Position numbers and translations under genes: made by a program. 64,000 bases of DNA from NCBI GenBank assembly GCA_021162935.1, contig JAGGXR010000054.1, positions 1 to 64,000 of the forward strand, given 5' to 3'. The notes under the pieces are model-generated. The model was not told where the DNA came from. It was given only the letters and a program-made list of their open reading frames with translations, and did not search any database. This stretch comes from Deltaproteobacteria bacterium (lineage in GTDB: Bacteria > Myxococcota_A > Polyangia > HGW-17 > SLPX01). Positions 394 through 30,300 of this stretch are shown here, piece by piece (within the stretch, counting starts at the first letter, position 1; each line of letters starts with the position of its first letter).

Positions 394-757
394 TGCGGGG
401 TTTCGATCCTCCGTCGGTCGCGTGAAAAGCCTCTCCAAACAAGCCTCGGATCTGCTTTTTCCCTTGGATCAAAAAATCGTTCTATGATATAGATAGCCTG
501 TTCTTTGTCCCTCTTTTCCCAGTGACTCTGGGAGGATATCATTCCATGATGCCCACGACAGGAAATCGGCAGGGCGCAGCGAATTCGTGGCAAGTGACCG
601 AGGTCATCGTAGGGGCCTGCTGTGTGTTGTCAGGAGCTTGTGCGGAACAAGGTCTGTCGGACGCTGGTCTTGGAGACAGATGGGGTTGTCTGGGAGGATT
701 TGGGCGGGCGCTTCGGCTGCAGGGATTCGGAGATTTCTAACACAGGAGGCGGAGGCA
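394..757. other. 364-bp gap between the AgmX-like gene and the giant TPR gene
   Basis: I see no convincing gene here. A promoter-like sequence lies in the middle (listed separately). A 64-codon open frame from ATG at 546 to the TAA at 738-740 has a GGGAGG upstream and ends just before the ribosome binding site of the giant TPR gene. It could be a leader peptide, but its composition (many Gly, Cys and Arg) does not look like a real protein. Confidence 0.5.
464..493 (+). promoter_or_regulatory. Candidate sigma70-type promoter for the giant TPR gene
   Basis: TTGGAT (464-469) and TATAGA (488-493) are separated by 18 bp in an AT-rich island inside GC-rich DNA. An overlapping TATGAT lies at 483-488. 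It sits about 265 bp before the GTG start at 758. Inferred from the sequence only. Confidence 0.35.
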
Positions 758-3700
758 GTGCAGGATACCAACACCGTTGCGGAGCACGAACTGGAGCAAA
801 TCGAAGAGACCTACAGCGACGAGCAGCAAAAGCTCATCGATGCCGCCAGGGAGGCGGAGGCGGAGAAGCCTGAGCGCGCCCCCGAGAGTTGGCGTAAGGC
901 GGTACAGGCAGCTCCCGAGGCCATTCTTCCGAGGCTTGAACTGGCCAGGGTGCAAAAGGATCTTGGCCGCTGGAATGGTGCGGTCGACGCCCTGAATGAT
1001 GCGTTCAAGCGAGTGCCTGAGGAGATGAAGAATCGGCAGCGCGCTATCATGTTCGAGCTCATCGACATCTACAAGAATCATATGAAGCTCGATGTGAAGG
1101 TGCTTGAGTGCTACAAGAAGCTGCTTGTCGTGGATCCCACGGACCTGCGCATTTTGGACGAGGCTGCAGAGCACCTCGCTGCGGCCAGACGGTATACGGA
1201 CCTCATCAAAGTGCTCAAGCAGAAGGCCGAGGCGGTGAGCGAACCGCAGGACAAGGCCGCCGTGTATCTAGAGATTGCGAAGCTCTACGAAGAACGGAAC
1301 ACGCATGCAGAATCGGTGAATTCGTACGAGGCCGTCCTCGAGTTTCAGCCCACGAACGTCGAAGCGCTCACAGCCCTGAAGCGGTTGTACGAGAAACGCC
1401 GCGATTGGGAAAAACTCATTCACGTTTACGAACGTGAAATCGATCAGGCGGAGGACGAACAGGCCCGATTTTCGAGAAGTCTCGAAGTTGCGCGACTGGC
1501 AACCGAAAAACTCCGCAAGCCCGAGTTGGCGGTCAGTCTTTGGGAGAAGGTTCTGGATCTGGCACCGGGCAATGCCGAGGCGTTGGAGCACCTTGAACAG
1601 CTCTACAAGCGTCAAAAGAGTTGGGGAAAGCTCGCAACTGTGCTGGAGCAGCGGGTCGAACACGTCGATGATCCGGCAAAAGTGATCGAGGTCTGTCTCG
1701 AGCTGGGGGTCTTGTTCACAGACCGGCTCGAAGACAGAGCACGAGCGATCGAAGCCTGGAAGCGTCTGCTCGTCCACGATCCGCAGAATCGTCGTGCCCA
1801 GGATGCACTCAAGAAGCTGTACCTTGCCGAAAAGGATTGGGAGGCTCTTGATGCATTCTATTCGGAGTTGGAAAACTGGGAGGAATATATTCGGGTTCTG
1901 GATCGGCAGGTGAACGAGGAGGAAAAGCCGGTCCAACTCAAGCTGTATTTCAAGATTGCCTCTCTGTGGCTGGAGAAGGTTGATCGGCCGGAGCGCGCCG
2001 TGGGAGCGTATGACAAGATTCTGGGGATCGATCCGGAAAATCTGGATGCAGCAGAAGCGTTGATTCCCATTTTCGAGCAGGCAAAGAACTACAAGAAATT
2101 GGCTCGGGTGCTCGAGATCCAGGCTGACCACACCGAAGACCGCGACATGCGACTGGAGCGAATGCGGACATTGGCAGGGCTGTATGAGAGCAGTCTGCGG
2201 GATCCTGCGGCTGCCATGACGAAAATGCTTCAGGCATTTGAAGATTCCTGGGAGGACGGGTCGCTGCGGGAGGAGATCGAACGATTGGCCGGGGTGACGG
2301 GCCAATGGGCCGAACTCGTGGCGAGCTACGAGCAGGCCTGTGACAAGTTTAGCGATCCGGCCGCTTCTCTTCCTGTTCGTCGGGTCATCTCGGAAGTGTA
2401 TGAGCAGAAGCTTGATGCCGCCACCAAGGCCATCGAGGCGACGAAGGCAATTCTGGAGATAGCGCCCGAGGAAGAGGCTGCGCTTGGTTCCCTCGAACGA
2501 CTCTATCGGGGAATCGAGGACTGGGATAGTCTACTGGACATTTATGAGCGAATGCTGACTCTTGCCTCCGACGAGGACCGGCGCAAGCGGATCCTGTTTT
2601 CCATGGCGGAGATTTGCGAGAAGCACGTCGGAAAGCCCCAGGAGGCGATCGCCCATTATCGTGCCGTCCTCGACATGGGAGACGACCTGGAGGCACTGCG
2701 GGCTCTGGATCGACTTTATGAGGCGAGTGAAGCGTGGGAGGGACTTGCAGACGTCATCGAACGCCAGCTTTTGCTCGTTTCCGAGGATGAGGTTTCCGAG
2801 GTCTGTACGCTGAAATACCGCCTGGGACAGTTCAAGGCAGCCTACTTGGGTGATGCGGGGCAGGCGGTCGAACAATATCGCGAGATTTTGGACCTCAATT
2901 CAGCCCACGAGGAGGCGCGGAAGGCTCTGGAACTGTGCCTCGAAGACCCAGATTTGAAGTTGGAGGCGTCCAAGATTTTGGAGCCAATCTACGAAGCCGC
3001 AGTGGAATGGGAGTCTTTGATCGCGGTGCTGGAGATTCAAGCGGGCGGTTCCGAAGATGCAACCCAGCGGGTGGACTTGCTCCTGAAGATAGGAAACCTC
3101 TGGGGGCAGAGTCTGGGAGACACGAACAGAGCTTTCGATGCTTATAGTCGTGCCTTCCAGCAGGATGCTTCGAGAGCGGAGGCTCAGGCCGCTTTGGTCG
3201 GGATCTGTGAAATCGAAGAAAACTGGCAGGCCCTGGTCGACCTCTATGAGCAGGCCATCGAAGGGGATGCGGCATCGTCCGTGAAACGTGGGCTTTTGAC
3301 CTATGTGGCGGATGTCTATGACACAAGGCTCGAGGAGCCGGACAAAGCGGTCGAGGCGTACCGGAAGGCGCAGGACATCGATCCGGACGATGCGGGCACC
3401 CTCGATGCCCTTGAAAAGCTCTACACGAAGAAGGAGCAATGGCCGGCGCTTTTGGATGTGTATGCGCGGAAGGTCGACCTTTCCACCGACCCGGACGAAC
3501 GGCTTCGCCTTCTGTTCCAGATTGCGTATCTTCAGGAGGAGATGCTCGACGATACGGATGCGGCGGTGCAGACCTATCGGGAGATCGTTGCGGCGTCTCC
3601 GGAGAACCGTGATGCACTCAGGGCGCTCGATCGGTTGTACACGAAAAAAGAAGCCTGGCGGGAATTGGCGGATAACGTGGCTCGACAGCTCGAATTGGCC

Positions 3701-6700
3701 GAAGACGACGTGCCGGCCCAGGTCGAACTGTTGAACCGGTTGGCGGCCCTTCGGTTGCAGTATCTCGATGAAATCGGCGCGGCGATCGAGACCTATCGCC
3801 GCATCCTCGACTTGGACTCGGAAAACGACCTGGCGATCCAAGCTCTTGAATCATTGCTGGATAGCGAGGAGTACCAGCTTTCAGTGGCAGAGGTGCTCGA
3901 ACCCATTTACCGAATGCGGGACGAATGGGAGAAGTCAGTCCGGGTCTACGAAGTGATGGTCCATCATGCATATGAGCCGGCGAAGAAGCTGGAGTATCTG
4001 CATCAGATTGGAGAGCTCTACGAGATCGCTGGCGATGACGCCCAGGCCGCGTTCAATGCGTATGGTCGTGCTCTTGCCGAGGATCCTGCCCAGGAAGAAA
4101 CGCGTCAGCGCTTGGAGCGGATCACTCGGGAACTGGGCAACTGGGAGGCCTTGGTCGAACTCTATGAAGCCCAGGTGGAAGAGAGCATGGATCCGACTTT
4201 GGCGGTCGGGATCTGGATGCGAGTGGCGCAGATTCTCGAGACTCAAGTGGATGATTCGGAGCGTGCTGGTGCAGCGTACTTTAAGGTGCTTGAGCAGGAC
4301 CCGCAATACATCGAAGCAGCGAATGCCCTTGAGCAACTTTTTACGCGGACGGATGATTCCAAGCAACTCGTGGGCGTGTTGCTGAAGAAGATGGAGATTG
4401 TCTCGGACATCGATGAGAAGAAGCGACTGTGCTATCGGGCGGCGCGCATCCAAAGTGAAGAAATCGAAGATGAGGCGGCAGCGGTTGAGACGTACCGGAA
4501 GGTGCTTGAGATCGATGAAGCCGACGAAACGGCACTGGATGCACTCGAAGGTCTTTATGTGGGACAGGGGCGCTGGGAAGATCTCAAGGACGTGTACCTG
4601 AAAAAGGCTGAGCTTGCGGCGACGGATGAAGACCGGAAGCGGATGCTGTACGTGCTCGGGCAGGTCTACGATGCAGAGCTGCATGACCTGGATCGGGCCA
4701 TTGAGACGTATCGGTCGATTCTGGACATCGACGGGGAAGACCTCGAGGCGATTCAGGCTTTGGACCGGCTCTATTTCCAGGCGGAAAACTGGTACGAATT
4801 GCTCAGTATTCTGGAAAGGGAAGTGGATTTGGCCGCAGGAACGGCGGAGGTCGTCGGGTTGAGACATCGCATCGGTGCCCTGTGGGAACAGCAGATGGGC
4901 GACTTGGGGCGTGCGGTGGATACCTATCGTGACGTTCTGTCCCTGGATCCGACCCATGAGCCGACTTTGGCAGCCCTCGAACGCATCGCTCACGGAGATA
5001 CCGAGCCGATGCTGGCTGCGCAGGTTCTCGAGCCTGTCTATCGTGACGAGCTGGAATGGGAAAAGTTGTCCGCCATTTATGAGGTGCTGGTCGCCCATGT
5101 GGAGGACTCGGTTCAGAAGGTGGAACACCTTCATACGTTGGCAGACCTGTATGAACAGCAACTCGACGATGCGGTGAGCGCGTTCGGAGCGTTTTCCAGG
5201 GCATTCCAGGAGAATCCCACGGACGAGCAGACGCTTGCTCAGCTCGAACGTCTCGCAGGAAATGCGGACAAGTGGGCCGAGCTTGCCGATGTCTATGAAG
5301 CGCAGTTGGACAAGATCCTGGATTCGTCGCTGCAGGTGGACATTTTGCTGCGCATCGCTCGGGTCTATGAGGAGGAACTCGATGAACTCGATGGGGCTGT
5401 GGAAAAGTACCAGAGGGCGTTAGAGCATGATCCAGAATCTGTGCCCGCGATTCAAGCATTGGATCGACTGTTCCAGCGCTTCGAGAAGTGGGAATCTCTC
5501 ACCGAGGTGTTGCGTCGAGAGATCAGCATGGCCAACACCGATGACGAGATCATCGCTGGGCAGTTCCGGTTGGGGCAGGTCTACGAACAGAACCTTGGGG
5601 ACATGGACAACGCCCTGGAGTGCTACCGTGAGGTCCTGGACATCGACCCTGAACACACAGGAACCCTGTCCGCCCTGGAACTCCTATTTGCCGAGGGCGT
5701 GAAGCAGCAGGAGATTGGTCGGATCGTCGAGCCCCTTTACACTCAAGGGGGCGAGTGGGAAAAACTCGTCAAGGTGCTTGAGGTCCTGCTCGGTCAGGTC
5801 GAAGATCTCGTGGACCGGATGGCTTCCGTTCAGCGCATCGCGGAAATCTGTGAGCAGCAGCTTTTCGACAAGGTGGAGGCGTTCCGTTGGTGGGGCCGCG
5901 GCTTCGTCGAGGACCCCACGAGTGAGTTGGCCACCGAGGAATTGGAACGACTGGCAGAGGAAACAGGATCCTGGGATGAGCTTGCCGAAGTCTATGAAAA
6001 GGTGGCCTCCGGGCGTACCGACGAGGAAGGGCTCGTCAAGAGGGTGCTGCTTCGCAAGGCGACGGTCTGTGAACTCCACACGAACGATCAGGCGGGCTGT
6101 GAGGAGGCGTTGCTCAGGGTCCTGCGGATCGACCCGGATGAGGTTGATGCACTGAGCGGTTTGGATCGGCTCTACAGTCGGGCCCAGATGCATGAGGAGT
6201 TGGCAGATGTGCTCGCACGTCGGGTGAAGGTTGCCGACGGACCGGACGAGGCCATCGAACTCCAGTTCCGTATCGCCGAGTTGCAGGAGGTTTTCCTTGA
6301 GAACCTCGATGCTGCGGTGACGGCCTACAAGGCAGTGCTGGACGAGGAGATGCGCAATCTCAAGGCGCTCGAAGGCCTGGAGAAGATCTACTTCCAGCGT
6401 GAGCAATGGAAGGAACTCTACGGAGTTTACGAGCAGATGCTTGATGTCGCGGCCAGTGACTCGGAAATGGCCGAGTGCTACGCGCGGATGGCGAAAATCG
6501 CGTCGGATGCCCTGGATGCGCCGGACGATGCGAAGCAGAAGTGGCACCAGGTTTTGGATCTTCGAGGAGACGATCCGGTGGCCTTCGATGCTTTGGCGGA
6601 CCTGTACGAAGACGCCGAGCAGTGGCAGGAACTGGTCGAGGTTTTGGAGCGCCAGGTGGACGCCGTGGATTCCGACGACGGCCGGATCCGTTTGTATTAT

Positions 6701-9700
6701 CGGCTGGGTGGCGTGTTGCGCGATCGACTCAATCAGGATCGTGAGGCAATCGATACCTTCCATCGTATTCTGGACCTGGACCCCACCAACGTGGATGCGC
6801 TCTATGCGGTTGCGGCACTGTATCGACAGATTCAGGCCTGGGAGGAACTGAGCGAAACCCTGTACCGGTTGGTGGATCTGGGGACGACGGTGGCCGACCT
6901 GTCGGATGAACAGCTTTTGGACCTGTATTCCCAACTCGGTGAGCTCCAGGGCGCAGTGCTCATGCGCCCCGACGATGCCATCGAGGCCTGGCAGCGGGTC
7001 CTCGACCTGGATCCTGCGAATTTCAAGGCATTGGGTGAGTTGGAAACCCTTTTTACCCAAGAGATGCGTTGGGAGGAGTGCATTTCGGTTCTGGAGCGGA
7101 AGGTCGCTGCACTGGAAGAGGCTCAGGACCAAATCGATATCCTCATGCAGATGGCCAGTATCTGGGAGGATAAAGTCGGCGAGCCCATGAAGGCCGCCAC
7201 GGTGTACGAACGCGTGCTGGAAGTCGATGCTTCTCACGAATTGGCAAGTGAGCATCTCGAACGGATCTATCGAGAGAACTGGGAGTGGGGTGGTTTGGTC
7301 AAGGTGCTCGAACGGCGTCTGGCCTATTTACCCTCGGTGGACGATCAGGTGGCGACGCTCCACGAGATCGGGAAGATTTTTGAAGAGAACATGGACCCGC
7401 CGGACCTCGGGTCTGCCTTCGAGTATTTGATGGTGGCCTTCGCGTTGCATTATACGAATGAAACAACAGCCCAGGAGCTGGAGCGACTCGCCACGGCCAC
7501 GAATCGCTGGAACGAGCTTCTCACCCAGTACAACGAAAAAGCTGAGGAAGAGACCGACGTTCAGGTGAAGTGCAACCTGCTCGTGAAGATTGGGCGGTGG
7601 TACGCATCGAAACTGAGTCGCCCTGACTATGCCATGGCATCGCTGCAGCAGGCCCTGCAACTCGACCCGAACAACAAGGACGCCCTTTCGGGGCTTGCGG
7701 ACTATTTTCGCACCCAGATGCAGTGGCCCGAGTTGGTTCAAACCTTGGGCCGATTGGCCGACTTGGAAGACGATCCAGTGAAGTTGGCCGAGGTTTACCT
7801 GGCTCTCGCCGACCTGTACGAGGACAAGTTGGCCTCCATGATTGACCCGAATCAGGCCATGCAGCTTTCCATTCAGTCCTATCAGAAGGCTTTGGAGGCC
7901 GACCAGAACAACGAAGGGGCGCTGGCAGCGCTGGAGCGGCTCTATCGGACCTATCAGCAGTGGGATCCTTTGATCGACATCCTGAAGCGGAAGGTGGATT
8001 TGACCACCGAGACGGACAGGGTGATTGAGCAGAAGATGGCCATTGGAGAACTGTACGAGGATCGGCTCGACGACGCCTACAAGGCGATCAGCGCCTACAA
8101 AGACATCCTGGAGGTGGACCCCCAGAATTTGGATGCACTCAAGGCCCTCGAACGGCTCTATGAAAAGACGGGCCAGATGGAGGAGTACCTCGACGTTCTG
8201 GAGCAGGAATTAGACTACGTGGGTACGGACGACGAGCGTGTCGGCAAGTATCGCCAGATGGCAGCGGTTTGGGAAGAGCACTTCGACAAGGTGGACCGAG
8301 CGGCGGAATGCCACGAGAAGATCCTGCTGATCAATGAGACGGACGACCGCGCCTATGCGAGTCTGGAACGCCTCTACCGGCAGGAGGGCCGCTGGGAGGA
8401 TCTGGTCGATACATACGACAAGCATATCAACGCCATCAGTTCCCCTGCGGACCGTATCGAATTGTCCCGCATGATGGGGGATATCCTGGAACGTCAGCTC
8501 CACGATGTGGACCGAGCCATCGATGCCTATCGAGCGATTCTGGACTATGACGACAGTCACGTGGACGCCCTGATGGCATTGAGTCGCCTCCTGGAGCAGG
8601 TTTCCGATTGGGACAATGCGCTGGAGATGCTGCAGCGCCTGGCGCGCCTCATCGACGATCCAGATCAGCAGGTGGAACTCTACCATCGAATGGGCCACAT
8701 TCTCGAGGAGGCCATGAGTGACGTGGAGGGCGCCGAGATGAACTACATGCGCGCCCTGGAGTTGAATCCTGCCTATGTGCCTTCCATGACCGCACTGACC
8801 GACATCTACAAGGGGCGTTCGGAATGGCTCAAGGCTGCCAAGATGATGGTGACCGCCGAGGAACATACGAACAATCTTTTGGACCGCACGAGCCTGCTCC
8901 ATGAGGCGGGCATGATCTACCTCGAACGGATCGAGGATCGCGAAACCGCCATGGAACTGCTGGCCAAGGTGCTTGAAGTGGACCCAGAACATGTGGCGGC
9001 CGCAGAGCCCCTTTCCAACCTTTATTTCGAGGATGGGCGATACGAAGACCTTGAGCCAATCTTGGACATGCTGGTGCGCAAGAGCGAAGACAAAGACAAT
9101 CGCGCTCTTTCGCAGCTCTACTATCGCGCCGCGAAGACGGCCCATGAGCTTGGCAATGCTGACAAGGCGCTCAAGTTCTATCAGATGGCGTACGATTTAG
9201 ACTCCACCCATCTGCCGACCTTGAAGGGCATGGCGAAGATTCTCTACGACCAAGAGCAATGGGACCGTTCCTTCAAGGTCTACCAGACCATCCTGGTTCA
9301 CCATCGAGAGGCACAGGCGGACCAAGAGATCACGGACATCTTCTATCGTCTCGGAAACATCAAGCTCCAACTTGGCGAGACCAAGAAGGCGCTCAATATG
9401 TATGAGAAGGCCCTGGAGGTGGATCCGGGGCACAAAGAAACGCTGTTGGCCGTCATCGATCTCCAGTCGAAGCGAAAGGACTGGGAAGCGGTCATCCATG
9501 CAAAGCGTGCTCTTCTCAACAATGACCTGGATGCCAGGGAGCGGTTCACCCTTCTCGAAGACATCGGTGACATCTACAACGATCGGCTGAACAATTCACA
9601 GAAGGCCATTGCCGCGTATCAAGAGGCCATCGACATCGATCCCGACGACCACAGCGTCCTACAGAAGGTGCTCGAACGGTATTACGACTCGAAGCAATGG

Positions 9701-11206
9701 AAGAAGGCCATCGGCGTGATCGATCGGTTCATCGAGATGGAGAGTGACCCGGCCATTCGGGCCAAGTATTCATATACGGCGGCTGCGATCTACCGAGACG
9801 AACTCAAGGCGCTCGATGAGGCGGTCGAGTACTTCAACAAGACTCTGGACGACAATTGGGAGCACCTCAAAGCCTTCCAGGCCATTGATCGAGTCTGTAC
9901 GCAAAAGAAGGATTGGAAGGCTCTGGAACGAAATTATCGCGCCATGATCAAGCGGATGCCCCAAGACAAGAATGTGCCGCTCCTCACCATGCTCTGGCAT
10001 AACCTCGGCGAGATCTACCGCACTCGGCTGCACAATTATGAGAATGCAATTGCAGCCTTCGACGTGGCGGCCAAACTGGAGACGGGGAACATTCAGAGGC
10101 ATCAAATCCTTGCAGAACTCTATGAGATGGTCGGGACCCCCGAAGCGCTCACCAAGGCCATTGGTGAGTATCAGGTCATTCTCAAGTCGGATCCGAGGCG
10201 GGTGGAGGTCTACAAGAAGTTGTTCTCCGTATATCGAGAGGCCCGTCAGTACGACAAGGCCTGGTGCGTTGCTTCGGCTTTAGCCTTCCATCGAAAAGCG
10301 GATCCCCAGGAAACGCAGCTTTTCGAGGAGTATCGCCAAAAGGGCCTGGTTCGGGCGAGACAGCGGGTTGGAGGCGAACTGTGGACCCGTAACATTTTCC
10401 ATCCTGACGAGGCTCGCATCATCAGCGGTATCTTTGCCCTTGTGGCGCCGGCTTTGGGGGCTGCCATTGGGCACCCGCTGAAACATTATCGCCTCAAGTT
10501 GAAGGAGCGACGCGATTTGGCCACGGACCAGCTCATGTTCTCCAAGCTGTTCAACTACGCATCTCAGGTGCTCAATTTGGAGGTGAACCCGGACCTGTAT
10601 CTCAAACCGGATCAGCCCATTGGGTTCATGTCGGCCTGTGCCCTGGAAAAGGGACAACTTCGGCCATTCTGCATCGCAGGACAAAACCTGCTTCATGGCA
10701 GAAACGACAAGGAACTCGTTTTTGCGATTGCAAAGGAGTTGAGTTTTTTCAGGCCGGAGCACTTCATTTTGCGAGTGGTACCCCAGTTGACTCCTGGTCT
10801 GCTCAAGGTGCTCCTGTTTGCTGCGATGAAGTTGGTCGCGCCGCAGCTTTCTTTGCCGGGTATCGATCCCGCCAGCGTGGACCAGTACGTGAAGGTCCTG
10901 CAGAAATTCATCCAGCCGACGCAGTTGCCACTGCTGCAGTCTTTGAGCAAGAAGCTCATGGAGAACCCGGGGGCGGTGGATCTGACCCAATGGCTTACCG
11001 CTGCGGAATTGACGGCGAACCGCGCCGGTTTCGTGGTCTGCAACGACCTTCCCGTTGCGGCGAACGTGCTGCGGCAGATGGATCGGGCGGCCGTACCGGT
11101 CGGCGGTCTCTCCCTGGAGCAGAAGATTGGCGACCTGGTGCTCTATAGCGTGAGTGAGGAGTACTTCGAAGTGCGTCGTCAGCTCGGATTGACCATCGCG
11201 CAGTAG
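758..11206 (+). CDS. Giant TPR-repeat protein with a C-terminal M48-like pseudopeptidase domain
   Basis: About 3482 residues, almost entirely TPR-like helical pairs in a unit of about 72 residues (AIETYRxILxID, then ALxxLYxxxxxWxxL, then IGxLYExxLxD), roughly 40 units. I chose GTG 758 because AGGAGG lies 8 nt upstream; the open frame reaches back to ATG 587, but that stretch is Arg/Gly/Cys-rich and lacks repeat character. After about residue 3170 the repeats stop. The last 250 residues include a segment near residue 3326 (FAIAKELSFFRPEHFILR) that fits the metal-binding helix of M48 peptidases, but with Lys and Phe where the two zinc histidines should be. There is no signal peptide and no membrane segment, so it is probably a cytoplasmic scaffold. 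Together with the upstream AgmX-like gene it resembles the Myxococcus AgmK (GltI) arrangement. The TPR call is firm; the C-terminal and motility readings are inference. Confidence 0.9.
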   Translation: MQDTNTVAEHELEQIEETYSDEQQKLIDAAREAEAEKPERAPESWRKAVQAAPEAILPRLELARVQKDLGRWNGAVDALNDAFKRVPEEMKNRQRAIMFELIDIYKNHMKLDVKVLECYKKLLVVDPTDLRILDEAAEHLAAARRYTDLIKVLKQKAEAVSEPQDKAAVYLEIAKLYEERNTHAESVNSYEAVLEFQPTNVEALTALKRLYEKRRDWEKLIHVYEREIDQAEDEQARFSRSLEVARLATEKLRKPELAVSLWEKVLDLAPGNAEALEHLEQLYKRQKSWGKLATVLEQRVEHVDDPAKVIEVCLELGVLFTDRLEDRARAIEAWKRLLVHDPQNRRAQDALKKLYLAEKDWEALDAFYSELENWEEYIRVLDRQVNEEEKPVQLKLYFKIASLWLEKVDRPERAVGAYDKILGIDPENLDAAEALIPIFEQAKNYKKLARVLEIQADHTEDRDMRLERMRTLAGLYESSLRDPAAAMTKMLQAFEDSWEDGSLREEIERLAGVTGQWAELVASYEQACDKFSDPAASLPVRRVISEVYEQKLDAATKAIEATKAILEIAPEEEAALGSLERLYRGIEDWDSLLDIYERMLTLASDEDRRKRILFSMAEICEKHVGKPQEAIAHYRAVLDMGDDLEALRALDRLYEASEAWEGLADVIERQLLLVSEDEVSEVCTLKYRLGQFKAAYLGDAGQAVEQYREILDLNSAHEEARKALELCLEDPDLKLEASKILEPIYEAAVEWESLIAVLEIQAGGSEDATQRVDLLLKIGNLWGQSLGDTNRAFDAYSRAFQQDASRAEAQAALVGICEIEENWQALVDLYEQAIEGDAASSVKRGLLTYVADVYDTRLEEPDKAVEAYRKAQDIDPDDAGTLDALEKLYTKKEQWPALLDVYARKVDLSTDPDERLRLLFQIAYLQEEMLDDTDAAVQTYREIVAASPENRDALRALDRLYTKKEAWRELADNVARQLELAEDDVPAQVELLNRLAALRLQYLDEIGAAIETYRRILDLDSENDLAIQALESLLDSEEYQLSVAEVLEPIYRMRDEWEKSVRVYEVMVHHAYEPAKKLEYLHQIGELYEIAGDDAQAAFNAYGRALAEDPAQEETRQRLERITRELGNWEALVELYEAQVEESMDPTLAVGIWMRVAQILETQVDDSERAGAAYFKVLEQDPQYIEAANALEQLFTRTDDSKQLVGVLLKKMEIVSDIDEKKRLCYRAARIQSEEIEDEAAAVETYRKVLEIDEADETALDALEGLYVGQGRWEDLKDVYLKKAELAATDEDRKRMLYVLGQVYDAELHDLDRAIETYRSILDIDGEDLEAIQALDRLYFQAENWYELLSILEREVDLAAGTAEVVGLRHRIGALWEQQMGDLGRAVDTYRDVLSLDPTHEPTLAALERIAHGDTEPMLAAQVLEPVYRDELEWEKLSAIYEVLVAHVEDSVQKVEHLHTLADLYEQQLDDAVSAFGAFSRAFQENPTDEQTLAQLERLAGNADKWAELADVYEAQLDKILDSSLQVDILLRIARVYEEELDELDGAVEKYQRALEHDPESVPAIQALDRLFQRFEKWESLTEVLRREISMANTDDEIIAGQFRLGQVYEQNLGDMDNALECYREVLDIDPEHTGTLSALELLFAEGVKQQEIGRIVEPLYTQGGEWEKLVKVLEVLLGQVEDLVDRMASVQRIAEICEQQLFDKVEAFRWWGRGFVEDPTSELATEELERLAEETGSWDELAEVYEKVASGRTDEEGLVKRVLLRKATVCELHTNDQAGCEEALLRVLRIDPDEVDALSGLDRLYSRAQMHEELADVLARRVKVADGPDEAIELQFRIAELQEVFLENLDAAVTAYKAVLDEEMRNLKALEGLEKIYFQREQWKELYGVYEQMLDVAASDSEMAECYARMAKIASDALDAPDDAKQKWHQVLDLRGDDPVAFDALADLYEDAEQWQELVEVLERQVDAVDSDDGRIRLYYRLGGVLRDRLNQDREAIDTFHRILDLDPTNVDALYAVAALYRQIQAWEELSETLYRLVDLGTTVADLSDEQLLDLYSQLGELQGAVLMRPDDAIEAWQRVLDLDPANFKALGELETLFTQEMRWEECISVLERKVAALEEAQDQIDILMQMASIWEDKVGEPMKAATVYERVLEVDASHELASEHLERIYRENWEWGGLVKVLERRLAYLPSVDDQVATLHEIGKIFEENMDPPDLGSAFEYLMVAFALHYTNETTAQELERLATATNRWNELLTQYNEKAEEETDVQVKCNLLVKIGRWYASKLSRPDYAMASLQQALQLDPNNKDALSGLADYFRTQMQWPELVQTLGRLADLEDDPVKLAEVYLALADLYEDKLASMIDPNQAMQLSIQSYQKALEADQNNEGALAALERLYRTYQQWDPLIDILKRKVDLTTETDRVIEQKMAIGELYEDRLDDAYKAISAYKDILEVDPQNLDALKALERLYEKTGQMEEYLDVLEQELDYVGTDDERVGKYRQMAAVWEEHFDKVDRAAECHEKILLINETDDRAYASLERLYRQEGRWEDLVDTYDKHINAISSPADRIELSRMMGDILERQLHDVDRAIDAYRAILDYDDSHVDALMALSRLLEQVSDWDNALEMLQRLARLIDDPDQQVELYHRMGHILEEAMSDVEGAEMNYMRALELNPAYVPSMTALTDIYKGRSEWLKAAKMMVTAEEHTNNLLDRTSLLHEAGMIYLERIEDRETAMELLAKVLEVDPEHVAAAEPLSNLYFEDGRYEDLEPILDMLVRKSEDKDNRALSQLYYRAAKTAHELGNADKALKFYQMAYDLDSTHLPTLKGMAKILYDQEQWDRSFKVYQTILVHHREAQADQEITDIFYRLGNIKLQLGETKKALNMYEKALEVDPGHKETLLAVIDLQSKRKDWEAVIHAKRALLNNDLDARERFTLLEDIGDIYNDRLNNSQKAIAAYQEAIDIDPDDHSVLQKVLERYYDSKQWKKAIGVIDRFIEMESDPAIRAKYSYTAAAIYRDELKALDEAVEYFNKTLDDNWEHLKAFQAIDRVCTQKKDWKALERNYRAMIKRMPQDKNVPLLTMLWHNLGEIYRTRLHNYENAIAAFDVAAKLETGNIQRHQILAELYEMVGTPEALTKAIGEYQVILKSDPRRVEVYKKLFSVYREARQYDKAWCVASALAFHRKADPQETQLFEEYRQKGLVRARQRVGGELWTRNIFHPDEARIISGIFALVAPALGAAIGHPLKHYRLKLKERRDLATDQLMFSKLFNYASQVLNLEVNPDLYLKPDQPIGFMSACALEKGQLRPFCIAGQNLLHGRNDKELVFAIAKELSFFRPEHFILRVVPQLTPGLLKVLLFAAMKLVAPQLSLPGIDPASVDQYVKVLQKFIQPTQLPLLQSLSKKLMENPGAVDLTQWLTAAELTANRAGFVVCNDLPVAANVLRQMDRAAVPVGGLSLEQKIGDLVLYSVSEEYFEVRRQLGLTIAQ

Positions 11207-11373: not shown

Positions 11374-13014
11374 TCAGGTTTGGGGCTTGGGGGGAATGGG
11401 CGACGTGAGTTCGGTCTGCCATCGGCCGTCCTTGAGATTGGTCACGTTGTAGACCGTGATGGCGTCTCTTTTGCCCTTAACCTTGACCGGCGGCAGACTG
11501 ACCATTTCGAATCGGTCGTCCAAATGGACCTGGGTCTGGTGGGAAATGAGGATCTCGCCGGGTTTGGCGAGGGAGCAGAGGCGGCTTGCCAGGTTCACCG
11601 GGTCGCCGACCACCGTGTACTGCATGGTTTTGGACGTTCCAATAGCGCCGCAAACCACCTGTCCGGTGTTGATTCCAATGCCAATTTGGATGGCCTCCTG
11701 GCCTTCGGATTGCCTCGTGCGGTTCAATTCACGAAGCGAACGCATCATGTTTACGGCGCATTCGACGGCTCGAATCGGGCCATCGGGTACAGGAACGGGC
11801 GCACCGAAAAGAGCCATGATTTCGTCACCGACGTATTTGTCTAATGTGCCCTCGTGTTGGAAGAGGATATCGACCATGGCTTCGAAGTATTCATTGAGGA
11901 TGTGGACGATCTCGGCGGCGGGTTTGCGTTCGGACATGGAGGTAAACCCCCGGATGTCCGCAAAGAGAATCGTCACTTCACGAAGTTCGCCGCCCTGCTC
12001 CAGACGCATGGCTCCGGAGACGATTTCGTCGACGATATTGGGGGACAAGAGCCGTTCCAGTTGGGCCCTCGTTGCAGCTTCCTTCTCGATGTTCTGTGCG
12101 AGCCGCGCATTTTCGATAGCGTTTGCCGCCTGGTTTGCGATGCTCGTCAGAATCTGGAGGTCCTTCTCGGTGAAGGCGCTCGTGGCGATTTGAGAGTCTA
12201 CGTGGATCACGCCGAGGAATTCATCGTGCCACAGCAAAGGCACACTCATGGTGGAGCGGATGCCCTGCATGATGACAGAGTGGGCGCCTTTGAATCGGGC
12301 ATCCATCAGGGCGTCCGAGGACAGCACTGCGGCTCGGTGCTGCACGACCTCTGACAGAATGCTCCGCGGGATGACGATTTCGGCAGATGGACCCGGTCGT
12401 TCGTTGCGCCGTTTGAGAACAGTGGGCTCCAATGCATCGGTTTTCTGATTCATTAGGAGGATGACGCCACGATCAGCAGGAAGGATGTCGAACGCCTTGT
12501 CGAGGATCTTGGTCAGGAGGGAATCAAGGTTCAGTTCGAGACTCAAGAACCGCCCGACCTCGTAAGCGACGCGCAGCTTTTCGTAATCACGCCTCAGGAC
12601 ACTGACGTCGTAGATGTCTTTCTCGGAGAGAAACTCGCGGCTCGCCTGAGCGTCGATCTTTTGATGGATCTGACTCTCGACGAGTTCTGGTGGAGAAATG
12701 GTCACTTGGCTCTGGATCTGAGGAAGGACGTCACTGGCCCGAAAGGCGAGTCTCGTCGAGCCCATGCTGATTTCATCGCCATCTTCCAGGATTCGTTCCG
12801 TGACCCGATCGCCCTTGACATAGGTTCCGTTGAGGCTGCCGAGGTCTCGGAGGATATACCGACCGTCCGGGGACACGAAAATTTGGGCGTGTTCCTTGGA
12901 AATGATTCGGTCCAGAATTTGAATACTGTTATCCGGATGCCTGCCCAGGGTGTTTAGTGCCTCGAGCAGGTATTCCTTCGGTGGTGTGACCGTTAGATTG
13001 ATGAGTTTTGCCAT
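11374..13014 (-). CDS. FHA-GAF-class III nucleotidyl cyclase
   Basis: 546 residues. An FHA domain (about 1-95) shows LGRHPDN, the ISKEHAQI core and LGSLNGTYV, so it should bind phosphothreonine. A GAF domain (about 145-310) follows, then a class III cyclase catalytic domain (about 330-525). The catalytic domain keeps both metal-binding aspartates (FADIRGF and VGDEIMALFG), the Lys just before the second (LDKYVGD) and the Asp of YTVVGDPVN, which together favour ATP over GTP as substrate. There is no transmembrane segment. It is the last gene of a three-gene minus-strand cluster after an Hsp70-like protein and a J-domain protein, 54 bp after the latter. Its output is probably cAMP, controlled by a phosphoprotein partner (FHA) and a small ligand (GAF). 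Hanks-type kinases elsewhere in the window are possible partners, but nothing links them directly. Confidence 0.9.
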   Translation of the reverse strand: MAKLINLTVTPPKEYLLEALNTLGRHPDNSIQILDRIISKEHAQIFVSPDGRYILRDLGSLNGTYVKGDRVTERILEDGDEISMGSTRLAFRASDVLPQIQSQVTISPPELVESQIHQKIDAQASREFLSEKDIYDVSVLRRDYEKLRVAYEVGRFLSLELNLDSLLTKILDKAFDILPADRGVILLMNQKTDALEPTVLKRRNERPGPSAEIVIPRSILSEVVQHRAAVLSSDALMDARFKGAHSVIMQGIRSTMSVPLLWHDEFLGVIHVDSQIATSAFTEKDLQILTSIANQAANAIENARLAQNIEKEAATRAQLERLLSPNIVDEIVSGAMRLEQGGELREVTILFADIRGFTSMSERKPAAEIVHILNEYFEAMVDILFQHEGTLDKYVGDEIMALFGAPVPVPDGPIRAVECAVNMMRSLRELNRTRQSEGQEAIQIGIGINTGQVVCGAIGTSKTMQYTVVGDPVNLASRLCSLAKPGEILISHQTQVHLDDRFEMVSLPPVKVKGKRDAITVYNVTNLKDGRWQTELTSPIPPKPQT

Positions 13015-17526: not shown

Positions 17527-17543
17527 CGTCGAGGAGGTACATC

Positions 17544-21078: not shown

Positions 21079-21338
21079 TCCGAGTTCCTGACTGCGTCGA
21101 GTGATGGTTGAAGGCCAAATGTTTGAGGTACGTTACTCGATTGGGGGTATTTATCAAGCTCCCGGCAGGCGTGTTTTTCTTTGGGGTACCCTGTGGGTCA
21201 AGACCGCGATGGAGTTTCTCTCGGATTGACGGCAGGCGTGGCAGAAGCAGAAAGTTTGTGTCCGATCCACGGTCGTCGCACAATGGCGGGACGAGCCAAA
21301 AGATGGTAGCATGGCGCGACAACGGAGACGGGAAGTTC

Positions 21339-24300
21339 ATGAATCAGCCGATGACGACCGAGATCAGATTTGGAATGACCCTTTCTGGGCGTCAGGTTTT
21401 GGTATTTACTGCCGACCGGCCTCTGACGGATTTCGCACACTTGGACCGTTTGTCGATGGAAGTGCCGGACTTGGCTGCTCCCTTCAATGTCGGCGCCGGG
21501 GCCGGGCAGTTCCGTAACAGGCGTTGCCGGCTCGAAGAACTGGCCGTGCGCGTCGATCCAGTGCGGGCGTTATCGTATGCCATCGAAACTCGCGGCCGAG
21601 TGCCTGGTCTCACCGTGGAGCAGGTTGTCGGGACTCGGTCGGGGGTGGTGGCCATTGGCGCTGTCTCGACTCCGTCGGGAAAAGCCCCAATCACCGTCCG
21701 ATTCGGCATTGGGACCTGCCGAAGCGAGATGCTCCTGTCGGCGCTGGAGATTCGTGTGTATGGCAGGGTTGGGACACCACCAGGGGCTTTGGTTGCTTCG
21801 TATCTGGCATCCATGGCGCCGGCTGGAACACAACGCGGTGCCGTAGAGTTGGCCTTCGACCCGATGGACTGGGTGCTGTGGACGGTGCTGCTTCCTGCCG
21901 GCTGGCGTTTGCCGGATCGGCCGGACAGGGAGCTGGCTCTTTCCTGGTCCAAAGACGGGGTCACCCTGTCGTTTCGGTCGCTGGGCCGGTCTGACGATGG
22001 TCTAGCCGAGCCAGGAGAGGATTCGCACGGCGAAGACAGTGCTTCCAGTAGGGTGCGGAGGGACCAACTCGACGAGGTGATGGCTCGCGGACTGGCGGAG
22101 TATCGCACAACCGAGGCTTTGCTCATCGAAGGGCGCCTCGATGAGGCGGCCGATGCCTATGTCAAGGTGTGGGAACAGGATCGTGCAGATCGGTTTGCTT
22201 TGCTGCGTGCCATGGAGTTGTGCTCCAGCCTGCCGAGACGACGTTTGGAGGGGCAGGCGCTTGCCAGGGAGGCGCTTGCCAGATGGCCGGATTGGATTCC
22301 TGCCCTGATCGCCCTCGCTTCGACGACTGAGGCGTCGGGCGATCGAGCCGGAGCGGCGGAGCTCTATGAACGTATTGCCCGCCTTGCCGAGGCTGAGGGT
22401 CGCCATTACGACGTGGCTGCAGCAACCCTTGCAGGAGCCAAACTTTGGGAGACTATCGATCAGGAGCGGGCGATTGCTGGCTACGAGGCCGCTTTGGAGG
22501 CTGCGCCCGATTCAGTGGAAGCGTCCGCACGACTGGAGGCTCTGTACCGCGATCGTCGGGATTGGTCCGGCGTGCTCCGTCTGTTTCGTGACCGGATCGC
22601 CGCCCATCCTCCGACGGCACGAGTGGACGATCATGTGGCGTTGGGGGAACTCTATCTCGAAGGGCTCGATGATGCGCTTCGTGCGAGGGCAGAGTTCGAA
22701 AAGGCGGTTCGAATCGACAGCGGCCGTGCCGATGCGTGGATCGGCCTGGCACGTGCTTTTTTGTTCGGTGGGGACCCCGCAAGGGGGTTGGAGGCCCTCA
22801 AGAGGATCACTTCGGAGGCAACCCCGACACAGACCCTTGCAATCGACGAACTGTGGGCCCGGTGCGAGGACGCATTGGGGATGACCGACGTTGCGTTGGC
22901 CAGGATTCGACCCATTTTGGATGACCTGGAGGAAGCATCGTCCTCGCCAACCGATCCGTGGAGTATCGTGGAACTCGCGGCCGATCTGGCAGCGAGGGCC
23001 GAGGACTGGGTATTGTGTGCGCGCCTCTTGAATCGGCTGGGCGCTCGGGGTGATGCGGATCCAAAGGAGAGGGTGCGTTTCCTGATGGACCTTGCCCGCG
23101 TGGCGCTCGATCATCTCGATGATCGGACGATGGCTCAACGGTCGGTGGACGAGGCCCTTGCTCTGGACAAGAACCGGCCGGAATTGCTCTCCTTGGCCGT
23201 GACGGTCGCCATACGGCGGGGACGGCTCGCCGAAGCGGTCGACCTGATGGAACGGTTGTCTTCCATTCAAGCCGATCCGCAGCTCATGGTCCAGCGGGCC
23301 AGACTGCTCGCCTTCGACCTCGATCGTCCCGAGGAGGCCCTCGAAGATCTGACCGTTTTGCCCGTTGACTCGACGGAGGTCATCGCGCTTCGGGTGGATA
23401 TCTTTCGTGCGCTAGGTCGCACCGAAGATCTCGTAGCAGCGCTCGAACGCTACCTGGAATCAGTCGAGGTGCAACCGGCCAACGCGGAAACGATTGCTGG
23501 GCTGCACCTCGAATGGGCGGATCTGATCTGGAAAGAGGAGGGAGCCGAGTCGGTTGACAAGGTCAAGCGTTCTTTGGTGGCCGCCAGTCGACTACAGCCG
23601 GACAACGTTCAGTTTTTGGAGCGACTTGCAGGTTTGCTCGATGGCATCGGTGCAACCATGGAACTCGAGCAGGTACGCGGTCGCCTCGTCATCCTGTATC
23701 GGAAATCGGAGGATCTCGACGGCTTGGCATGTGCCTTGGGGGCTTTTGGCAGAGTCCTTTTGGAGACGGGGCGGCCGGATCGGGCGGTCGAGGCATTGAC
23801 CGAGGCCAGCCGACTGAGGCCGGACGAGTTGTCGTTGGAATGGACGCTTGCCGAGGCTCGCCAGGCCACAGGCCAGATGGATGAAGCTCTGGATCTCTAT
23901 CTTCGGTTGTGGGAATCCGTCGATGCGTCCATCGATCGATCCAGCCTGGCGGCTCGAATTGCGGAGGCCTACCACCAGCGCGGCGACAGAGACGCCATGG
24001 TGCGATTTGCTCGTCAGGCGGTGGAGTTGGGAGTCGAGGGAGATGCGCGTCGCAGGAGTAGACAGTGGGTCTGCGACGCCCTGGTCGCCCAGGAGCGTTG
24101 GGAGGAGGCTGTCGAAGCGTACCAGGACATGGTTGGGGACGAACACTGTCCAATCGAGCGAGCCGATCGGGCGCGGGCTCTGTATGCTGCGGCCGAAATC
24201 AGCAGACAATACCTTTCAGACCCAAAACGCAGCGAAAGCCTCTGTCGTGCGGTTCTCGACGTGGAGCCACGGCACAGGGGCGCCCTCAATACCCTCGAAA

Positions 24301-27300
24301 CGTTGCTGACCGCATCGAATCGATGGGAGGATCTTCTCGATGTGCTCGAACGTAAGATTGCGGCGGCGGAAGGACACGCTCAGGAGCAGGCGGCACTTCT
24401 GGGGCGGTTGGGCAGGATTGAGCAGGAGCATTTGGGGTGGGTCGAGTCGGCGCGTCGTCATTTTCAACGCGCCATGGAATTGGATCCGCGATACGAACCA
24501 GCCCTGCTGTTCGTGGCGCGAGATGCCTTCCGGACTCATTCGTGGCAGGAGAGCTTCGATGCCTACGAGGGTCTCGATAGACTTTTCGGGGAGCAGGAGG
24601 ACGTATCGACTGCGCTGGAGGGAGAGGTCCAAGGTAGATTGGCGCGACTTTGCTTCGAGCTGGGCCGCCTAGGCGAGGTGGACGAGCACGCCAGGAGGGC
24701 GATCGAAGCAGCGCCGGACGACGATGAGACCCTCTCCTTTTACTCTGACATCCTGGAAGAAGATGAGCGTTGGGAAGAACTGGCGAGTATCTTGAGACGC
24801 CGGGTAGAGCTTGCATCGGATCCCGTCGGGTTACGACTGGCGCTTGCCGAGGTCCTGTCGGATCGACTGGGAATGGTCAGTCAGGCTGCTGAGGTGTGTC
24901 GAGAGCTGCTTCGCCGTCGTCCGGATGAACCGGCGGCCCTGATGCGTCTCGCCTCTTTATTGGCACGGGAGGGGCGAAGCGCCGAGCGTCTGAAGGTGCT
25001 CGGTCGGTTGGTGCGGGTTCTCGATGACGATGACCCAGGCTCCGTGCAGGCCCGAAGGGAACTCGTGGATGTGGCGATCGAGCTACAGCAGATGGATGTG
25101 GCTCGACAGCAGGTCGAGATTTTGATCGATGAAGGGGGCGAAGACGAGTCCCTGGGTCGATCCGTCCTGGTCGTGGCGGAGGCGCTCGGGGATCCTTCCC
25201 TGATGGATCGTGGGTTCGAGGCTTTGGCCCGTGTGAGCGACGATCCCGAGCAGACCACGGCCTTGATGGTGCGACGGGCCCGACTGCATCAGGATGACCT
25301 GTCCGATCCATCCGGTGCTTTGGCATTGCTCGATGAGATTTCGGATCCAACGACTGAGGTCCTGGAGCTTCGGGCCTTGTGTTTCGAAGGTCTGGGACAG
25401 TTTCGGCAGGCGGCGGACGTATATGGCACGTTGGCCGAGCATGCGGAGGAGGTACAAGCCGAGCAGGAGGTTACCTGGCGGCTCAAACTCATGGAGCTGG
25501 CCGAAGGGGAGTTGTCGGATTCGGATCTGCTCGAGTTCAACGGGCTGCGACTTGTGGAACTGTTGCCTGAGGACGCGAGCGTGGCCGGCCGCATGGCGGA
25601 GTTCTACAGGGATCGTGGTGACGGGGTGATGATGAGGCGCATGCTCGAACATCAGCTTCGAGCCCTGCGCCTCGTCGGTGACGATCAGGGACAGAGAAGT
25701 CTCATGCTCCGTCTGGCGCGGCTCTGGATGCAGGTTCAGCCCGATGGCCTCGATCGTGCGGAGACACTCTGTCGGCGAGCCATGGAGCTTGGAGGGGGGC
25801 CGGACGCCCTGCAACTCCTGTCGGAGGTTATGGCGGCAAGGAAGGATTTCCGTGGAGCGGCAGGCACCATCGAAGAGTTGGTGGGGCTTTTGGACAAGGA
25901 GCAGACCGATCCGGAATTGCTGGGTCGATATAGTCTGGAGGTCGCCCGGTTGTATGCCGGACTGGCTGACGGCGGCCAGGATTGTCGTCTGTGGGGCAGG
26001 AAGGCGGCAGGTCTGCTCAAGGCGACGGCACGAATTGAGGCGCTCGACCTGTGGCGGAGTCACGCCGTCACAGATGCGGTCTGGTCGGAGGTCGCCGAGG
26101 CGGGGGAGCAGCTCAAGCAGGCTCGAGGTGCTGTGGTGGATCTTGAAGGCCTTGCGAGGGCCTATGAGGAATTGGGGCGGGTCGATGAGGCGATACGGGT
26201 CGTACAGGAATTGGTGGATCGGGTGCCGGGCGATCCCCGTCTGACCGAGACGGTTCGACGTCTGTACACGACGGCGGGGAGGCTATACGATCTCGCCAAG
26301 AATCTTGAAAACGAAGCACGGGATAAGGAGGATCCTGCCCTGTTGGTCGAGGCCGCCCGGTCGTATCTGGCAAGTCCCGATGGGGTCGAGGATGCGAGGC
26401 GTTGCGCCGAGGCCGCCTGGAAGACAGGGTATCGACAGGCCCTCGATGTGTTGGACGAGGCGTTTTCAGCACCACGGGAGCGGGATCGATTCTGGTCCGT
26501 GGTGGCCGAGGACGTGCTCGTCGACGGTGACGAACAGGTGGATCTCTTCGTTGAATTGGCACAGCGCAGGCTGGAAGAAGTGCATCATATGGACGATCAG
26601 GTGGAGGTATGGTTGCTCAAGGCGGCCAGCGTCCGACCTCAGGTGTTTGGATTGTTGGTCGACGGATTCGTTACAGAGGCAAGGTGGGATGAGGCGGCCG
26701 GGGGGCTGCGGCGTTGGCTCGAGACCGATTTGGATACGAGCGAACGGGCAGGCGTGCAGATGCGACTCGTTCGTGTGCTGTCGGGACGTCTGGATCGCCA
26801 CGAGGAAGCGGCCGAACTGGCCGGGGATATCGATCGGGGAGCTTTGGAGGAACGGGATCTCGAAGATCTCGCCAAGGTCCTGTTCCATGCCGGGCGCCTC
26901 CTCGACGCTGAGCGCCTTTACGGCCGGCTGGCTGGGGAGGGGGCAAGACGAAGGGACTATCTTCTGGCCGCCGCAGACGTGGCGGCTGCCCGGCAGGATG
27001 GAGAGGCGGAGGTTCGGTGGTTGCTCGACATGGTGGAGGAACTCGGGGGCGACGAGGAGCTTTGCGTTCGGCTCGTGGACCGAGCGAGACAGGTCGATGA
27101 GCAGGCCCTGTCCGAGGCGTTGAGAGTGAGCCTCCAACAGGATCTGTCTGATGAACGGGCAGCAGCTTTCGAAATCGAACTTGCAGAACTGTGCGAGGCC
27201 GATGAACGGTTGGCACTCCTCCTTTCGGCGTCGAGCCGGAAGGGGTGGGACGTTTCGTTGCAGAGCAAGGCGGCACAGGCCGCTATCGATGCGGGCAATT

Positions 27301-30300
27301 TGGAGCGAGGCATCGAATTGTTGGCTGATCTACACGATGCTACGTCCGGCGATCAGGGAGACATTCGTGGCCGACTTTCAGAGGAAATGGCTCGTGCCAT
27401 GGAGACCGCTGGCCAGGACGCCGTGGCGGCATGTCAGTTGTACCGAAGAGCGGCGGATGAATACGCTGACGATGCGGCTCGGCGCAGGACCCTGAGTCGC
27501 ATCGTGGACCTTGCTCGGGAGATCGGTGATCCCGGGGCGGAAGAGGAGGCGCTTCGAGCACTTCTCGACGACGGTCGGGCCGAACAGGCGGACAGGCTGC
27601 GGCTCATCGACCTGAGTGCCGGACGAGGAGCCTGGTCCGAGGTGCTCGAACTCTGCGCGTTGGTGGAAGAAATTGGAGGCCTGACGGCCCATCAGGTGAT
27701 GCTGCGGGCGAGGGCCTACGAGGCGCTCGGGCGATGGCAGGAAGCGTCAGTTGCATGGAAGAATGCAGCTCAGCGGCCGGATGCCGACCAGGGAGCTTGG
27801 CTTCTGCGTGCGGCGGTCGTGCTCAGGGACCGGTGCGATGATATGGACGGCGCCGTGGAACTGCTCGGCGAGGCTGCACTCCGGCAGTCCGTGAGGGCAG
27901 AGGCTGTGTCGCTTGCCGAGGCAATCTGTCGGCGTCAGGGGTGGTGGAGTCGTCTGCTCGAATTCAAGGAGATGGAGCTGCGGCTCGGAAGCGATGGTCG
28001 GCAGCGTGCCAAGATCCTGCACGGCATGGCTGTGATTCGAGACAAGAAATTGGGCGATCCGGATACCGCGGCATCCTTGCTGGCCGAGGCCGTTGCTGCT
28101 GATGGGGATTTCTATCCGGCACTGCGTCCATTGGGTGAGTACCATTTTCGAAACAAGGAATGGAAACCAGCTCATGAGTATCTGACCAGGGCGCTTCAGG
28201 ATCCAGATCTGGACGCGAATGCTCGGGTGGAAGTGTTCGATCGTCTTGCGAGCATTGCACGTGCCCGAGACGACGTATCCGAAGAACTGGAATGGCTTCT
28301 TTCCGCAGTTGCCGTGGATGCGAGCCGTACGGAGATGTGGCAACGAGCGGAGGAGTCGGCGAAACGGGGCAACGACGGGAGGGCCCTGTCCCGGGTGTAC
28401 CTGCTGCAGGCTCAAGTCAGCTCGGGGCGCCAGAAAGGAATTTACCTTGCTCGGGCAGCCAGGGAGCTCGATGAAATGGGAGACGACGGGGCCGTCGACC
28501 TGTACGAGCAGGCGGTGGATTTGAACACCGACCTGTTCGATGCGCGTCAGCGGCTGCTGGTATTCCTTCGGGAGCGGTCGGACTGGGAGCGTTTGACGAA
28601 GAGGCTGGAGCGTGAATTGATGCTCGTCGAAGGCGCCGCCCGTGCGGCGGTCGCCGGTGAGTTGGCGTCCTTGTGTGAGGGACCGCTCGATGACGACGAA
28701 TCCGCAGAGCGATATTGTCGTCTGGCCTATCGGGAGGATCCGACGAACGCGAAGTGGATTTGGGGGGTGGCGGATTTTTTGGCAAGGCACCGGCGGTGGA
28801 CCGATCTGGTTGATTTTCTCGAGTTGGTTCTCGATACGGCTGGTTTGGACGATACGGTGGTGTCAGGATTCATGGCGCTGCTTGGGCGGATCTACCTGGA
28901 AAAACTGGAGGACCAAGACCGAGCGCTGGCCGTGTTCCAGCGGGCGAGATCCCATGGTGTCCTGTCCGGGCGAAGCGTGACCCTCATGGCGGATCTCTAC
29001 CGAGGGCAGGAGCGTTGGGGCGACTTGGCGACTCTGTATGAAGAGATGATTCAACATACGGAGGAAAACGCAATTCGTAGCAGTCTGGCGGTGGAATTGT
29101 CGAAGGTGCTCGCCGGCCCTCTTGGGGATATGGCCGCCTCATCCATCGTTCTGGTTTCCGAATTTCGCCGTGACCCGAAGGGGAATATTTCCTTGGGGAG
29201 GATGGCACGAGACCAATTGTTGGAGTTGAGTGCCTACGAAGATGCACTGGCTCTTTCCGAAGAACTCGTTGGCGTGTCGAGTGACCGAGAGCACCCTGGT
29301 GAGGATCTCGCATGTGGAGTCATTTTGGCAGAGTACCTGGGGCGCGAAGAGGAGGCTGTTGAATACCTTCGTCGGGCGGTCGAGGCTCAGGTAGACTTGT
29401 CCAGAGGCCATCTCATTCTTGGGCGCATCCTTTTGGAACAAGGGCAGGTGGAAGAGGCGCTCTACCACCTCGATATCGTGGCCGAGGGGGAGCGGGATGA
29501 TCGGACCATGGCAGCCGAAGCGCACCAACTCGCGGGCCAGGCCGCAGCCCGGGCGGGTCGCGGAGAGTCTGCAATCCGGCATTGGGAAGCAGCTCTGGCA
29601 TTCGATGCTACGAATGAAGGGGTGCTGGATGCTCTGGCCGAAGAGTACGACAGACAGAAGCAGTGGGATCGGCTCGATAAGGTACTGGCGCGCAGGATCG
29701 TCATCGAACCGGACCCCTCGCGGCGAGCCCGTTTGTGGTACAAGCGCGCTCTTCTCCTCGGGGATTTTTTGAACAGCAAGTCGGATGCCCTTCGTTGTCT
29801 CAAGGAAGCCGTTGCAGCGGCTCCGGGGTATATGGAAGCGGTCAGGTCCCTCCGGCAGGCTGAAGAAGACGCGGGGGACTTCGCGGCTGCCTGCCATTTG
29901 TTGGATCGAGAGATTGCGGCGGCAACCGATCCGCATGCTGCAGCTGACCTCCAACTTCACCTCGGGGCTCTGCTGGAGACGAAGCTGCACAAGCCCCACG
30001 CCGCATTGGCAGCCTATCAGCAGGCTGCACGTCTCGCCCCCGACAACCATGCAGCCGGCGAAGAACGGGCCCGGCTGTTCGCGGTGACCGGTCAGTGGCT
30101 CAAGGCGGCAGAGGCAGAGGAGACCAGAGCGCGTCAAGAAGGGTCTGACGAGCATCTGCTCAAGGCGGCACAGTATTATCTCCGCGGCCAGGATTCGGTG
30201 GGAGCGACGAGGTGCTGGACGACGGTACTTGCGGAGGGGAACGGCCGCAATGTGGAGATCGCTGCCCGCGCCCTGGTGCGGGCCAGTCGACGGGCAGCGG

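Follow-up and report, generated by a model that had tools for sequence, protein, structure and literature searches.

ZMPSTE24 and Ste24p are membrane proteases, and enzymes of the HtpX and Ste24 types are active M48 peptidases with HELAH-type motifs. In Escherichia coli BepA, an active periplasmic M48 peptidase, the catalytic domain is followed in the same protein by four TPR motifs, and these TPRs guide substrate recognition by the M48 domain (PMC7950410). Metallopeptidases of the ADAM, M14 and M16 types include pseudoenzymes that have lost the metal and the catalytic residues and kept the fold; such proteins are reported to act through protein-protein interaction or scaffolding, sometimes via the pseudo-active site, and can regulate active relatives (PMC11266112). 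M48 is unmentioned in that review, and literature searches for M48 pseudopeptidases with TPRs and for giant TPR proteins of Myxococcota returned nothing relevant.

Here we describe two open frames, P0001 and P0002, in a 64,000-nucleotide stretch of DNA (the window). Both encode giant TPR proteins, and an initial annotation had proposed by eye that each ends in an M48 metallopeptidase without its zinc motif. Like BepA, P0001 and P0002 join TPRs and an M48-type domain in one protein, but here the TPRs precede the M48-type domain, in an array many times the length of BepA's, and the zinc site has disappeared. The guidance exerted by the BepA TPRs is a plausible ancestral logic for the pairing of TPR with M48, an analogy that we do not count as evidence. 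We favor, with a probability of about 0.6, a reading in which both C-terminal domains are dead M48 (gluzincin) domains of a single ancient Myxococcota pseudopeptidase family, recruited to cap cytoplasmic TPR scaffolds as a metal-independent module for docking or client binding.

Two giant TPR proteins

Both open frames are present and consist mainly of TPR sequence (Table 1). The hydrophobicity autocorrelation of P0001 has a strong peak at 72 aa, corresponding to paired (two) TPRs. Its true start is probably near GTG 758. The initial annotation had numbered the lysine of the degenerate zinc motif as Lys3326; the lysine is present, but its number is K3383 when counted from GTG 587, an offset of 57 that fits a start at GTG 758. 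For P0002, an ATG near 21303 or 21339 is the likely start. The ~250 residues ahead of the P0002 TPRs (window 21339-22100) have no Pfam match and are recognizable in the orthologue L237. A cytoplasmic location of the scaffolds is assumed here, as no signal sequence is obvious by eye.

Table 1. Positions in the window, strand and basis of the features discussed.
Feature	Position	Strand	Basis or remark
P0001, giant TPR protein with C-terminal pseudo-M48 domain	587..11206	+	3539 aa from GTG 587; TPR families over ~3200 aa
Pseudo-M48 domain of P0001, residues 3260-3539 (~280 residues)	10364..11206	+	Homologues, AlphaFold2 model, fold matches, profile homology to active M48
HExxH-equivalent of P0001, KELSF (K3383-F3387)	10733..10747	+	Gap-free alignment with HELGH of active M48 L211/L213/L217; AlphaFold2 helix
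Third-zinc-ligand equivalent of P0001, ELTAN (E3474)	11006..11020	+	Aligned with ELTAD/ELSAD/EYEAD of active M48; AlphaFold2 helix 227-246
FHA-GAF-adenylate/guanylate cyclase	11374..13014	-	Tail to tail with P0001; adjacency kept in part of the class
P0002, giant TPR protein with C-terminal pseudo-M48 domain	21108..32690	+	3860 aa open frame from TTG; syntenic orthologue L237
Pseudo-M48 domain of P0002	31875..32690	+	Homologues in 20/59 genomes, AlphaFold2 model, fold matches, P0002-centred profile
HExxH-equivalent of P0002, RGLEW	32202..32216	+	Alignment
ExxAD-equivalent of P0002, VRMAQR	32469..32486	+	Val in place of third ligand Glu

Homology of the C-terminal domains to M48 peptidases

Single-sequence scans of Pfam and NCBIfam gave no M48 match for either C-terminal domain, and 24 homologues of the P0001 domain likewise went without one in Pfam; the gathering cut-off of PF01435 (Peptidase_M48), 20.3, was reached by neither domain and by none of these homologues. 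A profile made from the same 24 sequences matched no chain when compared with PDB sequences. Because curated libraries were blind to both C-terminal ends, the M48 assignment was tested by other routes, using dead-family, P0001-type-only and P0002-centred profiles built solely from domains without HExxH.

Searched against the source genome, the dead-family profile retrieved members in TPR proteins first and then an HtpX-like M48 protein (contig C125) with an E-value of 1.5e-6, aligned at its HELAH motif; in another profile search the dead-domain profile also matched HtpX-like M48, at 3e-6. The P0001-type-only profile found active M48 proteins with E-values of 2e-8 to 8e-7, and the P0002-centred profile, which contains no P0001-type rows, reached active M48 at ~6e-8. 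In the reverse direction, a profile of four active M48 sequences recovered the P0001 domain at 6e-7. The alignments of dead with active domains are collinear over the pre-HExxH segment, the HExxH helix and the ExxAD helix. Comparison of the family with M48 by hhalign afforded a probability of 95.2 and a score of 61.2 over 173 columns, whereas the highest score among 31 reversed or column-shuffled controls was 17.4.

By profile and tree, the closest active relatives are bacterial M48 proteins bearing PELxFxxGHELGH / FVLGHELGHIKFNHVL (L211-L213, L217, L248, L250, L256). These share with P0001 and P0002 the collinear HExxH helix, the preceding beta-hairpin and the ExxAD helix. In contrast to the domains of the giant proteins, they retain HExxH and, in the cases read, are single-domain (L211-L213 and L217: Pfam M48, with weak M56 in two).

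The two domains of the window share 14-17% identity, and the P0001-type profile scored P0002 directly at only E 0.075, so the link between them rests on intermediates and profile-profile comparison. Several places match both domain queries (e.g. G029:C11, G002:C328, G005:C295), and group-to-group hhalign gave 99.8%; the proposal that the two proteins are paralogues thus stands, although the relationship is remote.

Structure prediction with AlphaFold2 yielded a model of the P0001 domain from 48 sequences with a pLDDT of 89.3 and pTM of 0.87, in which the elements follow the M48 order: helix, strand, beta-hairpin, HExxH-equivalent helix and a later ExxAD helix. KELSF falls inside a predicted helix (nt 10706-10750). 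The P0002 model is of moderate confidence (pLDDT 68.3, pTM 0.72). Foldseek matches of the P0001 domain in the PDB were headed by MATCAP and ZMPSTE24, with selecase and Ste24p lower, all of them zincins; for P0002 the top matches were BepA and the Geobacter M48 protein Q74D82, and abylysin aligned at 2.6 Å over 66 columns. As the best E-values for both domains are weak (0.03-0.04), with low TM-scores and unrelated folds mixed in lower down, the fold evidence lies in the consistency of the matches and is not proof. An M48-like core is nonetheless predicted for both domains, and the top Foldseek matches of both models are mainly M48/gluzincin structures, minigluzincins included. Overall, the by-eye assignment is borne out by the matches to genuine M48 proteins, the hhalign scores relative to shuffled controls and the fold predictions; homology of both domains to M48 zinc peptidases is supported by profiles and models, and we place far more confidence in it than in the binding role considered below.

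Loss of the zinc site

The initial reading of the motifs was accurate. FAIAKELSFFRPEHFILR lies at P0001 residue 3379 (nt 10721), and the strings quoted for P0002, PAVVVSSSLLDL and FLFLIGRGLEWVRSGALFL, are found in its translation (nt 32136 and 32184), with RGLEW at the HExxH position. In P0001, Lys and Phe occupy the positions of the two zinc histidines. This protein retains the Glu of HExxH (E3384) and the Glu of the third zinc ligand, the latter within ELTANRAG, where the nearest active relatives have ELTADRAG or ELSADRAG; P0002 has neither Glu. For the HP plug motif, which carries the fourth-ligand His (H246 in BepA), the C-terminal region did not align with the THPFPxxR of active relatives, and SEEYFxxR lies in a similar place by eye.

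The loss is fixed among homologues: HExxH occurs in 0 of 145 distinct domains, and just three retain one His. At the first-His site 130 of the 145 have R or K, and the second-His site is mostly Y, F or L. The former catalytic Glu site is freely variable across these domains, most of which have H, R, A, F, Y or K there. The third ligand is D or E in 112/145, including all 110 P0001-type rows of one alignment. A salt bridge between the basic residue at the first-His site and the acid of the third ligand was considered as a replacement for zinc and rejected: the pair is found in 102/145, yet the two positions are unassociated (Fisher p = 0.33), and in P0002-type domains the acid is missing.

When the HExxH columns were left out of the tree, all of the 76 dead domains sampled grouped together, with weak support (0.56), and the node uniting them with the L211/L212/L213/L217 M48 subfamily has a support of 0.998. 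One ancient loss of HExxH is the simplest reading, if an unproven one. Among M48 matches in long open frames, no active intermediate with TPRs followed by HExxH was found, and the four closest contain M48 only, plus weak M56. The domain is almost surely incapable of M48-type peptide hydrolysis.

Distribution and domain architecture

The P0001 domain was matched in all 59 genomes searched (the source genome and others of the same family, order and class), usually with several copies per genome, and a single-sequence search recovered relatives of the P0002 domain in 20 of the 59. Close relatives belong to the class Polyangia of the Myxococcota and include Nannocystis, Enhygromyxa, Kofleriaceae, Sandaracinaceae and related MAGs; Nannocystis exedens has an orthologue of P0001 (L155). 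Across the phylum 181/284 genomes have a match, a figure that overstates the spread of the dead family because the weak single matches in some genomes represent either genuine M48 peptidases or highly divergent relatives within the family. The match sits at the C-terminus of its open frame in essentially all copies (140/140 collected domains), and the host proteins are TPR proteins of roughly 900-4200 aa. The source genome encodes about 11 pseudo-M48 proteins; the ones scanned contain TPRs and measure 1100-2700 aa.

One paralogue in this genome (L226 2088-5399(-), G000:C140) has the architecture receiver-DUF4388-DnaJ-TPR-pseudo-M48, a signaling/chaperone fusion that may point to function. At another locus (L204 629-12659(+), G000:C49), two genes for TPR plus pseudo-M48 proteins form a tandem pair with open frames that overlap by a few bases.

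The novelty of the family lies in how large and universal it is, and in its being missing from the curated libraries searched; the fold itself is not new. The family adds a large group of M48 pseudopeptidases unrecognized by Pfam and NCBIfam, and defines an uncharacterized end domain of some of the largest Myxococcota proteins.

Possible role of the domain

The domain has kept an M48-like fold, is class-wide, has multiplied and has been fused to signaling and chaperone parts, all of which argues that a function in interaction persists. In the proposed mechanism, the zinc site would have given way to a metal-free core with a basic residue at the first His and mostly a bulky hydrophobic residue at the second. 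A partner or client protein would then dock, uncut, in the former peptide-binding groove or on the domain surface, and the TPR superhelix would serve as an assembly scaffold. The binding role is an inference, the best that we can draw at present, and agrees with the earlier suggestion of a binding or sensing domain that ends a helical scaffold. A more speculative extension, which we hold only tentatively, is that giant cytoplasmic TPR scaffolds are phylum-wide and that the zinc-free M48 pseudopeptidase is their universal client-docking module, present as about ten paralogues per genome and plugged into receiver, DUF4388 and DnaJ proteins.

The dead M48 domain could instead be a purely structural cap that closes and stabilizes the end of a very long TPR superhelix and binds nothing specific, a possibility that we consider rather unlikely. 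Such a cap would suit the near-constant C-terminal position and the variability of the former catalytic Glu. It would also suit the rate of evolution, which is similar in the domain and the adjoining TPRs of P0001 (57% conservation versus 47-69%); the domain is no more conserved than the TPRs and so is not singled out by conservation. However, 280 residues would be a large size for a cap, most domains keep a basic residue at the first-His site, and around the former site and the C-terminus W3469, D3487, S3523 and R3530 are invariant and H3392 (RPEH) is strongly conserved. A domain of this size with invariant residues offers a handle on what the giant TPR scaffolds hold together.

Pseudopeptidases can regulate active relatives (PMC11266112), and active M48 peptidases are encoded in the source genome, which would suit a role as regulatory decoy, holding back cleavage through binding to an active M48 peptidase or to the substrates of one. 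We regard this as improbable: the loci examined reveal no genetic linkage to active M48 genes, and the nearest active subfamily was not seen in the source genome, where both M48 genes represent other types.

That the domain is still an enzyme, with a different metal site or chemistry, appears very improbable. P0001 retains E3384 and E3474, and its orthologues show good conservation of H3272, H3392 and C3485. Against this, the HExxH zinc site is gone from all 145 domains, the old catalytic Glu is replaced in most members, some members carry A, S, P or Y at the His and Cys positions, and P0002-type domains lack these residues. An unrelated helical domain with a chance motif resemblance would account for the failed library and PDB-sequence profile searches, but is scarcely credible against the profile matches, the hhalign controls and the AlphaFold2 and Foldseek results.

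Genomic neighborhoods

The FHA-GAF-cyclase gene has similar counterparts close to P0001-type genes at 28 related loci. Other lineages have different neighbors, which by eye are housekeeping-like (Rho, RF1, an RNase Y-like start). Since the FHA-GAF-cyclase alone recurs for P0001 and is lineage-specific, no firm functional partner emerges from the neighbors. In one lineage (L103, L120, L123, L124, L133, L141, L143), the next open frame begins ~4 bp after the P0001-type gene and has an N-terminus that is RNase Y-like by eye. Close to P0001, the window also encodes a 544-aa HSP70-like protein (13410-15044(-)), of interest because of the DnaJ region in one pseudo-M48 paralogue; no HSP70-like gene was found beside P0001-type genes elsewhere.

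The P0002 block is conserved in a genome of the same family (L237) and comprises SPFH/band-7, glycosyltransferase 2, two CDP-alcohol phosphatidyltransferase genes and a metallophosphoesterase gene. Two adjacent SPFH/band-7 proteins are encoded upstream of P0002 (window 16213-18809), one of which also lies upstream of the orthologue in L237.
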